Below are positions 19,312 to 28,165 of a stretch of DNA of 64,000 nt, piece by piece. The translations under genes and the position numbers were made by a program. Source of the DNA: Guyparkeria halophila (lineage in GTDB: Bacteria; Pseudomonadota; Gammaproteobacteria; Halothiobacillales; Halothiobacillaceae); NCBI RefSeq assembly GCF_034479635.1, contig NZ_CP140153.1, forward strand, positions 441,501 to 505,500, written 5' to 3'. Within the stretch, counting starts at the first letter, position 1; the number at the start of each line of letters is the position of its first letter. The notes below the pieces were generated by a model, which saw only the letters and a list, made by a program, of their open reading frames with translations, ran no database searches and had not been told where the DNA came from.

Positions 19312-19585
19312 GGTGGAACGGTTTCACGCGCTCGGTGCGTGAGGTGGCAACGCTTTGGCCCCGTGCCTGGCGCGCGAGTCGGTTTTCTTGCTTGTCCAAG
19401 AAAACCGACGAAAAGAAGGACACCCCGACGCCTTGGCCCTGCGGGCCTGATCGCTGCGCGATCAGCCTCGCGAACGGGCAATCGCGGACGGGTCGGTTCG
19501 ACGCGACGTCCTGTCGCGGCGAACCTCGGGCTTGCGTCCATGCAAGCCCGACCCTGCGATCCCCCGCTCGCGAGGCAAGGCGTAA
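19312..19585 (+). repeat. Mosaic hairpin repeat, copy 1 (forward)
   Basis: From outside to inside there is an outer segment (GTTTCACGCG and on to GGCGCGCGAG) and then four hairpins. H1 is at 19379-19408 (12-bp stem, loop CTTGTC). H2 is at 19448-19464 (TGATCGC stem). H3 is at 19502-19518 (CGCGAC stem, loop GTCCT). H4 is at 19527-19550 (CGGGCTTGC stem, loop GTCCAT). The spacer after H1 reads CGAAAAGAAGGACACCCCGA, and CCCTGCGGGCC precedes H2. Confidence 0.85.
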
Positions 19586-19698
19586 GGGGATTCGCCCTTC
19601 GATCCGCATAGTTGCCCGATCTGAGGCGCGCGACTTCCCTTTGATCTCTGGTGGAGTGAACGCTCGTCGGTCGGCACGGCGGTAGGCGAAGGTTGGTG

Positions 19699-19710
19699 CC
19701 CCCCCCCCCC
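19699..19710 (+). repeat. Poly-C tract of 12
   Basis: An uninterrupted run of 12 C lies in the spacer between mosaic copies 1 and 2. It is outside any supported gene, so length changes would not shift a reading frame; it is a likely sequencing or replication slippage site. Confidence 0.8.
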
Positions 19711-19727
19711 TGGGGCTTGCCTCACGG

Positions 19728-19995
19728 CCGGCGGGTGGCCGGGGTCGGAGCGACATGGACGTCGCTCCGAGGCTCAGCGCGACAGGAGGTCGCGTCGAGC
19801 CGGCCCCGAGACATTCGCTGGTCGTGAGGCTTCGAGGTCGGACCTTGTCCGGCCTCGAAGGCCCGAAGGGCCAAGCCGTGGGGTGTCTTTCTTTTCGCCC
19901 CTTTTCTTGGACAAGCAAGAAAAGGGGCTCGCGCGCCTGGCAGGGCGATCAATATTGCCCGCGCTACGCAACCGGCGTGCGAAACGATCCACCAT
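19728..19995 (-). repeat. Mosaic hairpin repeat, copy 2 (reverse)
   Basis: Reverse-oriented partner of copy 1. H4 is at 19746-19769 (CGGAGCGAC stem), H3 at 19778-19794 and H2 at 19831-19859 (TTCGAGG...CCTCGAA with an extended tip). H1 is at 19898-19927 (CCCCTTTTCTTG stem, loop CTTGTC on the minus strand). Stems of H1, H2 and H4 differ from copy 1 but remain paired. Confidence 0.85.
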
Positions 19996-20034
19996 CATTT
20001 GGCCGAGAACTGACGTAGTCGGCCTTTGGCGGAC

Positions 20035-20056
20035 GTCGGACTGAAGTCCGACCTAC
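20035..20056 (+). repeat. REP-like family A single copy
   Basis: GTCGGACTGAAGTCCGAC followed by CTAC, identical to the copies near 11.1 kb, standing between a mosaic repeat and a truncated one. Confidence 0.75.
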
Positions 20057-20149
20057 AGGAGTGGCGAGGGTCGGCCTATTTCTCGGGCGCTTGTTCTTCC
20101 CAATCCGCCTAGACGAGGGGGGCAAAACAGTTTTCCGAATTTTCCGTGA

Positions 20150-20262
20150 TGAGGGATCGGTTTCATGCGCCTGTTGCGCGAGGTGGCATGGACTCGCCCC
20201 CGTGCTCGGAGCGCGAGTCGCTTTTCTTTTGCCAGGCAAGAAAAGACCCTCACGCATCGGGT
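20150..20262 (+). repeat. Truncated mosaic hairpin repeat
   Basis: It keeps the outer segment (GGTTTCATGCGCCTGTTGCG and on to GAGCGCGAGTCG) and a decayed H1 (CTTTTCTTTTGCC / GGCAAGAAAAG), then stops at the 3' end of the MscS gene. H2, H3 and H4 are absent. Confidence 0.7.
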
Positions 20263-20267
20263 AAGGC

Positions 20268-21329: not shown

Positions 21330-21477
21330 CCATCCTCCGCAAGCGCGCTATTTATGAATCGCAAGAACAGCGAAAAAGTGCACTTGCCCGCTTTCGGGGA
21401 GAATTGCACCAGCCTCTATCCAGCAGAGAGATTAGTCGTGATGGAGTAGATCGCAGGATCTGATCCAAGTATTGCTG

Positions 21478-21577
21478 CAATCCGAGGCCCGTCGCGACAC
21501 GACGTCGCGTCGAGTTGGCCCCGAGGTCGTGAGGCTTCGAGGACGCGCCGCGTCCGGCTTCGAAGGCCCGAGTGGCC
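21478..21577 (-). repeat. Truncated mosaic hairpin repeat
   Basis: H3 (21493-21509, CGCGAC with loop ACGAC) and an H2-like hairpin (TTCGA...TCGAA, about 21536-21563) are present, then GGCCCGAGTGGCC. H1 and H4 are lost. The inner end touches the stop codon of the Gly-rich protein gene. Confidence 0.7.
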
Positions 21578-22375: not shown

Positions 22376-22413
22376 GTTAGTCGATGGGTCGGGGTAGTCG
22401 GCGGATGGCCGAT

Positions 22414-22435
22414 GTCGGACTGAAGTCCGACCTAC
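22414..22435 (+). repeat. REP-like family A single copy
   Basis: GTCGGACTGAAGTCCGAC plus CTAC, placed between the Gly-rich protein gene and the degenerate GGDEF gene. Confidence 0.75.
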
Positions 22436-22484
22436 AGCGGGTGGCAGTCGGGGGAGCCTGGCAGAACCCTCTTTATCCCGGTGA

Positions 22485-25560: not shown

Positions 25561-26300
25561 AAGCGATATTTGTCGGTGCCAGTTCCACTGCCGTCATGAC
25601 GGCGCAAGTGCTGTTGAAGCGGAACCACGAAGTGGTGGTTATCGATCGGGAAAAGGCGAAGCTCGATCAGTTGAGTAACGAACTGGACTGCGGGTTTCTG
25701 CTCGGTGATGGCAGCAAGCCCGCCCTGCTGCGCGAGACGAACCCGAAGGAGGGTGACGTGCTCTACTGCCTGACCGGCCATGACCAGACCAACATCATCG
25801 CCAGCCTGGTGGGGCGGTCGCTGGGGTTCGAGACGGTGGTCACCAAGATCCAGGATCCGAGTTACGAGCATATCTGCATCGAACTGGGGCTCGATTCCAC
25901 GATCATCCCGTCCCGTACCATCGGTCGGCACCTGGCGGACATGTTCGAGGGCCGTGACCCGTTCGAGCTCTCGACCATCTTCCGTTACGACGCCTCGGCC
26001 TTTTCCTTTGTCGCCAAGGAAGAGCAGGTTGGCACCATCAGCGACCTGGCCTTGCCCAAACCCAGCCGCGTCATGTGCCTCTATCGCGACGAACAGTTGA
26101 TCATCCCGGATGACGACGAACGGATCGAGATCGGTGATGAGGTGGCGGTCATCACGCATCGGAAAAATATCGATGCGTTGCATGAGACATTGGGTCTGGT
26201 CATCGACGCGGAATCGGATGGCCCGGATGGCCCGGATGGCCCGGATGGCCCGGATGGCCCGGATGGCCCGGATGGCCCGGATGCCACGCCACCGGCGTGA
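25557..26300 (+). CDS. TrkA/KtrA-like RCK protein with a C-terminal GPD repeat
   Basis: 247 aa: RCK_N Rossmann domain (about 1-120, VVVID and DGSKPALLRE) and RCK_C domain (about 135-215), the usual size of a single RCK gating ring subunit. The nucleotide-binding loop is atypical: GASSTAVM where GxGxxG is expected. After the domain come seven copies of Asp-Gly-Pro encoded by a perfect 9-bp tandem repeat, then DATPPA. It partners the TrkH-type protein by overlap and gene order. Confidence 0.9.
   Translation: MKAIFVGASSTAVMTAQVLLKRNHEVVVIDREKAKLDQLSNELDCGFLLGDGSKPALLRETNPKEGDVLYCLTGHDQTNIIASLVGRSLGFETVVTKIQDPSYEHICIELGLDSTIIPSRTIGRHLADMFEGRDPFELSTIFRYDASAFSFVAKEEQVGTISDLALPKPSRVMCLYRDEQLIIPDDDERIEIGDEVAVITHRKNIDALHETLGLVIDAESDGPDGPDGPDGPDGPDGPDGPDATPPA
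26217..26279 (+). repeat. In-frame 9-bp tandem repeat, seven copies
   Basis: GATGGCCCG is repeated seven times without a mismatch and reads Asp-Gly-Pro. Copy-number change would keep the frame and only lengthen or shorten the tail of the RCK protein. Confidence 0.95.
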
Positions 26301-27477: not shown

Positions 27478-27790
27478 GGCGTGGTTTGTGGTTTCGCACG
27501 CCGGTTTCGCTCGGTGGTTTGCGGGATGACGCCATGCCCGGCGCGCGAGCCCCTTTTCTTGCTTGCCCAAGCCAAGCTATGACTCCGGGGGCGAAAAGAA
27601 GGGCACCCCGTCGTCCTGGCCCTGCGGGCCTTCGAGCCCGGACGACGTCCGGTCTCGAAGCCTCGCGACCGGCGGCTGTCTTCGGGGCCGGCTCGACGTG
27701 ACTTCCTGTCACGGCGAGCCTCGGAGCGACGTCCCTGTCGCTCCGACCCCGAGCCAACCACCGGCCGCGAGGCAGGACGCAAGGGAACCT
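27478..27790 (+). repeat. Mosaic hairpin repeat, copy 3 (forward)
   Basis: The outer segment (GGTTTCGCACGCCGGTTTCG) is followed by H1, interrupted by about 24 extra bases (CAAGCCAAGCTATGACTCCG), so its stem is broken. H2 is at 27631-27659 (TTCGAG...CTCGAA). H3 is at 27697-27713 (CGTGAC/GTCACG, a compensated variant). H4 is at 27722-27745 (CGGAGCGAC, loop GTCCCT). The spacer GCGAAAAGAAGGGCACCCCG matches copy 1. Confidence 0.85.
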
Positions 27791-27869
27791 GATTCCCAAC
27801 CATCAGGTGGCGTAACGTAACTCTCCAAGGGGGCTGCTGCCCTGAGGTCGCGGTCTGGGCCTAATCGAA

Positions 27870-28165
27870 GAGTTGAGTCCCCTTGTGCCTTGCCTCGCGA
27901 GCGAGGGGTTGCAGGGTCTGGCCGGCAGGGAGGCCGGCCAGAGGTTCGCCGCGACAGGACGTCGCGTCGAACCGACCCGTCCGCAATCCCTCGTTCGCGA
28001 GGCTGATCGTCGCGGATGCAATCCGCGGCGATCAGGCCCGCAGGGCCAAGGCATCGGGGTGTCTTCTTTTCGTCGGTTTTCTTGGACAAGCAAGAAAATC
28101 GACTCGCGCGCCGGGCACTGCGGCAATTCCTTGCCGACTCGCGCAACCGGCGCACGAAATATCAT
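27870..28165 (-). repeat. Mosaic hairpin repeat, copy 4 (reverse)
   Basis: H4 is at 27918-27941 (CTGGCCGGC stem, a third sequence at this position). H3 is at 27950-27966 and H2 at 28004-28034 (TGATCG...CGATCA with a CGCGGAT tip). H1 is at 28073-28102 (one mismatch), and the outer segment extends to about 28165. Confidence 0.85.

Follow-up and report, generated by a model that had tools for sequence, protein, structure and literature searches.

The question raised by this locus is what kind of element its repeated hairpins form, and whether their structure serves a folded RNA or the DNA itself. The window, by which we mean the whole 64,000-nucleotide stretch of Guyparkeria halophila DNA analysed (genome positions 441501-505500), had been described in a sequence-only reading as carrying four similar units, each with hairpins H1 to H4 in a constant order.

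Two divergent dimers in the window

The four copies are present at 19379-19550, 19746-19927, 27560-27745 and 27918-28102. Taken by that reading as independent units, they are really the arms of two divergent dimers, at 19322-19984 and 27492-28159, that each combine one A-type with one B-type arm. The strand that functions is not the one described but its complement, referred to below as the AYGGAY strand. Every position of the H4 stems, CGGGCTTGC, CGGAGCGAC (in two copies) and CTGGCCGGC, is paired as had been reported, the CGCGAC/CGTGAC change in H3 is compensated, and the H2 cassettes are swapped as entire palindromes. The H3 and H4 loops agree with those listed, but H1 is neither constant nor intact in all four copies. 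In the 27560 copy the H1 loop is CTTGCC, an insertion interrupts the stem in its right arm, and the H1 module scores 34 bits versus 63-69 bits for the other three copies with R2, our model of the 3' module. The earlier description lacked the long closing stem, a small GGCCCGAAGGGCC hairpin, a pseudoknot formed by the H1 loop, and the terminal inverted repeats.

Element 1 (19322-19984) has its A arm on the minus strand and its B arm on the plus strand, and is bounded by the terminal inverted repeats TTTCACGCGC and GGCGTGCGAAA, which are sharp in the alignment of seven dimers. The 5' domain of its A arm (19463-19582, minus strand) is a TwoAYGGAY three-way junction with two GGA-loop hairpins, scoring 58.8 bits with RF01731 at 19463-19578 and 124 bits with R1, our own model of this domain. 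The 3' module of the same arm, comprising the linker, pseudoknot and H1 hairpin, lies at 19372-19439 on the minus strand (R2 67 bits; pseudoknot TGTC/GACA). On the plus strand, the B arm has a TwoAYGGAY-type 5' domain at 19713-19832 (RF01731 46.6 bits at 19740-19808; R1 105.9 bits) and a 3' module at 19867-19934 (R2 69.2 bits). Element 2 (27492-28159) starts 28 bp past the rlmM stop codon, and carries its arms in the reverse order to element 1, with the B arm on the minus strand and the A arm on the plus strand. Its B arm has the 5' domain at 27658-27779 (minus strand; RF01731 50.7 bits at 27655-27782; R1 110.7 bits) and the 3' module with the interrupted H1 stem at 27543-27622 (minus strand; R2 34.2 bits; alignment A1). 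The A arm has the corresponding parts at 27886-28005 (plus strand; RF01731 56.1 bits at 27886-28004; R1 125.6 bits) and 28043-28109 (plus strand; R2 63.6 bits).

Aligning the seven dimers of the 2.45-Mb complete genome gives a single unit type of ~665 bp, in which an A' arm and a B arm diverge from a variable spacer of ~100-150 bp between sharp inverted ends, TTTCGCRCGC...GCGYGCGAAA. H1 motifs in the genome nearly always occur as inverted pairs ~520 bp apart, and each arm, read outward, specifies a structured RNA of about 260-300 nt. The spacer of element 1 contains a run of ~12 C (window 19703-19714). A truncated intergenic B-arm fragment, with the H3/H2 part and without the R2 module, lies at 21457-21577 of the window, and a further fragment, from the outer end of a unit, at 20154-20267.

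Fold of an arm and the RNA strand

Read 5' to 3' on the AYGGAY strand, each arm consists of a closing stem P1 (~21 bp), a short junction stem, H4, H3, the H2 cassette hairpin, the small GGCCCGAAGGGCC hairpin, a GGGG linker, H1 and a terminal stem ending in GCGAAA. H3 and H4 become a three-way junction through the long closing stem, GCCTCGCGA...TCGCGAGGC, and two stem-loops of this 5' domain present A(N)GGAN closed by C-G. The H4 loop is ANGGAN and the H3 loop is mostly the pentaloop AGGAN, with ATGGAN in some relatives, so both are of the AYGGAY type. The sequence-only reading knew of no named family with this structure; the H4 and H3 half, on the opposite strand, is Rfam RF01731 (TwoAYGGAY), whose curated gathering score of 43 bits is exceeded by all four arms. 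RF01731 was the sole match in the Rfam search of the window, and no Csr/Rsm family was matched. TwoAYGGAY RNA was listed from human gut, gammaproteobacteria and Clostridiales (Weinberg et al., 2010, PMC2864571). The element shares with it the three-way junction, the two GGA-loop hairpins and a score above the cut-off; the Rfam model, however, covers the 5' half only, without the pseudoknot 3' module, the divergent pairing, the sharp ends or the alternative front domain found here.

Among 126 distinct copies, the H4 loop is CANGGANG in nearly all and the H3 loop is CA(N)GGANG in ~110, whereas some B arms, 14 of the 126, have lost the GGA from H3 (ACGA). Despite wholesale change of the stems, ~97-98% of H3/H4 cells are Watson-Crick in these copies, and covariation in a 25-sequence alignment (0.399 versus 0.160) lies above all 500 shuffles and every slid control. 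One orthologous A-arm pair shows exactly four base-pair differences, all changed on both sides, and no loop differences. Over ten orthologous arm comparisons, counting pairs that are paired in at least one species, 30 of the 46 changed pairs kept pairing.

The mismatches separate the two strands. If selection acted on DNA palindromes alone, any one strand would show G-T and A-C mismatches equally often. On the AYGGAY strand, G-U outnumbers A-C by 217 to 22 in P1 (~10:1; the count uses a model-fitted alignment of related copies, which leaves the exact ratio soft and the direction firm), by 63 to 2 in the junction stem and, in a count that used no covariance model, by 96 to 3 in H1. The counts in other families are 39:1 and 17:0. 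A comparison of minimum folding energies between strands was set aside; the sense strand folds better, yet random windows of the genome are also biased.

The 3' domain consists of H1, whose apical loop pairs with the preceding linker, followed by the short terminal hairpin ending in GCGAAA. The H1 loop opens with four bases that form a 4-bp pseudoknot with the four linker bases right after GGGG, a pairing examined in 76 Halothiobacillaceae arms. The pairing changes in step on both sides (TGTC/GACA, TGCC/GGCA, TGCA/TGCA, TGTG/CACA, CGTC/GACG, CGTG/CACG and CGCA/TGCG) and is perfect in 68 of the 76 arms, compared with a mean of 17.4 and a maximum of 30 in 2000 permutations. These statistics come from a permutation test, as formal pair counting on alignment A7 is upset by gap placement in the linker. 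Other families have loop-linker complements that are as long or longer, such as AAGAGCC/GGCTCTT and GTGCCC/GGGCAC, with a mean complementary run of 4.26 bp against a permuted mean of 3.25 (maximum 3.78). The H1 stem covaries as well (0.660 versus 0.179, above 500 of 500 shuffles). The 3' module (linker, pseudoknot and H1) has no Rfam match, and neither this module nor the divergent pairing, sharp ends, alternative front domain or motif sequences came up in the papers searched; the pseudoknot hairpin at the arm's 3' end is previously undescribed.

Since G-U far exceeds A-C on one strand only and the pseudoknot covaries, RNA is favoured, and it is very probable from these alignments that the architecture folds strand-specifically as RNA. 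Together with the compensatory stem changes, this strongly supports selection on a folded single strand, one of the explanations offered in the sequence-only reading.

Distribution, modularity and mobility

Model searches of the G. halophila genome gave numbers far above chance, with 15 RF01731 matches and 24 R2 matches. In a sample of 299 Pseudomonadota genomes, in which families are unevenly represented and model E-values are rough, R2 matches occur in 57 genomes from 30 genera and RF01731 matches in 25. R2 matches that are at most 1 kb apart are divergent in 44 of 50 cases, across eight families. Two kinds of front domain precede R2 and never occur together: the CA(N)GGANG hairpins, or a TGTYTGA...RYGAGTT hairpin, which is found in 37 of 65 arms and almost only in the sense orientation. 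The latter prevails in genomes that lack CsrA and is also present in several genomes that encode it. At loci L278-L280, L325-L326 and L334-L340, this second domain reads TGTYTGAGCG...CGNAGYGAGTT inside a long stem and has no Rfam match. Almost no copies are on plasmids or phages. A TwoAYGGAY-like core without the 3' module was observed in Firmicutes and spirochaetes, including Lederbergia, Ureibacillus, Sporosarcina, Pseudobutyrivibrio and Treponema, among others (L068-L142). The 3' module was not found beside the Firmicutes copies, so that there the core is the more widespread unit.

Taken together, the chances are about even that dispersed RNA elements sharing the 3' pseudoknot module form a class of their own, unnamed so far and widespread in Pseudomonadota. 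Such a class would have divergent twin arms and an exchangeable, host-matched 5' protein-binding domain (twin CsrA/RsmA hairpins in some CsrA-bearing lineages, the unrelated TGTYTGA...GAGTT domain in others), and would act as a distributed protein sponge or tether that swaps its ligand domain in evolution. With the present results TwoAYGGAY, an orphan family since 2010, becomes a front domain, alternating with one other, of a larger modular RNA repeat whose pseudoknot is conserved, and gains a physical organisation as divergent twins. In genomes without CsrA, the replacement front domain points towards another RNA-binding partner.

Several Guyparkeria species have the elements at orthologous positions. 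In eight of ten species, the unit downstream of rlmM starts at the same nucleotide, 73-75 bases past a conserved coding word; in the other two it is absent or decayed. Its arm order is A'-B in some species and B'-A in others. Identical stem cassettes recur at separate loci and between species, so that the mosaic is most simply explained by exchange between copies, and the shared cassettes together with the arm-order flips at one locus suggest that this exchange is ectopic. A copying process that regenerates palindromes, the other possibility raised by the sequence-only reading, is supported to this extent only. We lean slightly towards the view that the unit descends from a mobile element and is now mostly at fixed positions.

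Exchange of this kind, along with partial and degenerate copies, could also be expected of passive relics that gene conversion keeps alike and that have no present function. Conversion alone, however, gives neither the G-U/A-C asymmetry nor the covarying pseudoknot, and structure is kept at orthologous sites by compensated changes. We consider the relic reading very unlikely.

Another explanation is a mobile element acting at the DNA level, MITE-like or IS200/REP-like, whose hairpins would be recognised as single-stranded DNA by a trans-acting transposase or recombinase, with RNA folding incidental. The dispersal, the sharp ends with terminal inverted repeats and the inverted arms are as this would predict; in one genome (G243), ~15 R2 matches tie at the top score, suggesting recent spread; and the G. 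halophila genome has four Y1-type (Y1_Tnp) transposase loci. The nearest of these is ~10 kb from any copy, however, and the nucleotide position is unchanged across species. The strand-specific excess of G-U, the conserved GGA loops and the covarying pseudoknot fit RNA better, and we judge this explanation unlikely. The unit resembles bacterial MITEs in being short, non-coding and dispersed with inverted ends, but differs in its conserved RNA covariation; by inspection, the seven dimers have inverted ends and no evident target-site duplication, and no linked or parent transposase was seen. With REP, REPIN and BIME sequences it shares the extragenic, dispersed and mosaic palindromes, often in inverted pairs, whereas its arms are ~300 bp with a multi-domain fold and ends TTTCGC...GCGAAA, not 20-40-nt palindromes with a GTAG/GGAG head. 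A simple REP/REPIN was rejected on end sequence, size and the absence of a neighbouring RAYT, and the tested features give no support to a simple REP/MITE, which the sequence-only reading had allowed for. Conventional short REP-like palindromes, GTAGGTCGGACTTCAGTCCGAC, lie near the element ends at window 20015-20058 and 22394-22437.

Candidate CsrA sites and genomic context

The CsrA/RsmA consensus is RUACARGGAUGU, in short hairpin loops (quoted in PMC7937890), and the GGA hairpin loops with their CANGGANG context fit this SELEX-type site. A link between TwoAYGGAY and CsrA was already proposed by motif matching (PMC4333381). The G. halophila genome encodes one CsrA, a global regulator. CsrA is encoded in 25 of 25 sampled genomes bearing RF01731, compared with 180 of 299 overall, and GGA hairpins occur in 9 of 31 arms from CsrA-bearing genomes versus 0 of 34 from genomes without it (Fisher p 0.0006; arms picked by the 3' module alone). 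We weigh this co-occurrence lightly because the families are few, not independent and confounded by phylogeny; in several CsrA-bearing families the 3' module is preceded by a non-GGA front domain. Judging by loop sequence and distribution, the twin GGA hairpins probably bind CsrA, and from known CsrA dimer behaviour their spacing would suit one dimer.

Most units lie between codirectional genes, several just downstream of a gene. The flanking genes (dapC/dapD, cusBA, rlmM, mgtE, dnaE, acrB and others) have no common theme, and cis-regulation of a pathway was rejected on this ground. Spurious coding was also rejected, as ORFs across the elements fail the gene-calling codon score. No promoter conserved between the arms was noticed by eye.

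Placement just past genes, as after rlmM, would suit a bidirectional 3'-end element whose paired arms would stop read-through or shield the 3' ends of mRNAs on both sides, CsrA being irrelevant; the fold is very stable both ways, and any crossing transcript reads one sense arm. Both window elements, however, have no U-run after H1 or the last hairpin, as an intrinsic terminator would, and codirectional genes flank most units. This explanation also leaves unexplained the near-invariant GGA loops and their absence in CsrA-less genomes, and we find it quite improbable.

The reading that we prefer, and consider fairly likely, is an old, dispersed, modular and palindromically paired RNA element, here displaying CsrA/RsmA dimer sites. 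The twin GGA loops (CANGGANG) of an arm would bind one CsrA dimer. With the arms inverted, a transcript crossing a unit in either direction would contain one correctly folded arm, and each transcribed unit would offer CsrA a site, either at the 3' end of the transcript or in read-through RNA. At least 15 such dispersed sites in the genome could titrate CsrA as a distributed sponge, mark and protect transcript 3' ends, or both. The pseudoknot module may stabilise the RNA end, probably protecting or processing it. As a putative mobile-element descendant, the element would diversify by swapping whole stem cassettes between copies.

The CsrA-sequestering sRNAs CsrB and RsmX/Y/Z likewise have GGA stem-loops fitting the CsrA consensus, and titration is proposed for both; unlike them, the element has two sites per copy in many dispersed copies, without an intrinsic terminator or a single sRNA gene. 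Csr/Rsm network models rest on one to three sRNA antagonists. If CsrA does bind, these models miss tens of dispersed CsrA/RsmA sites in many proteobacteria. Binding would also suggest why repetitive palindromic intergenic regions turn up in Rsm pull-downs. In Pseudomonas putida KT2440, ISPpu8-flanking intergenic sequences are recovered in pull-downs with RsmA, RsmE and RsmI, a "long palindromic region" among them (PMC7937890). Compared by description only, these palindromes are possibly the same element, with ISPpu8 targeting it. The Pseudomonas fluorescens intergenic repeats R178 and R200, of 101 and 320 bp and up to tens of copies (Silby et al., 2009, PMC2718517), would fit the element in size, copy number and intergenic location, again by description only.

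Two further features were observed nearby and elsewhere in the genome. A tandem array of the 9-bp unit CGGATGGCC lies close to the end of a predicted gene (window 26206-26295). At genome 1551233-1554146 (L184), several arms cluster around a 394-aa ORF without a Pfam match, which may represent a larger composite.
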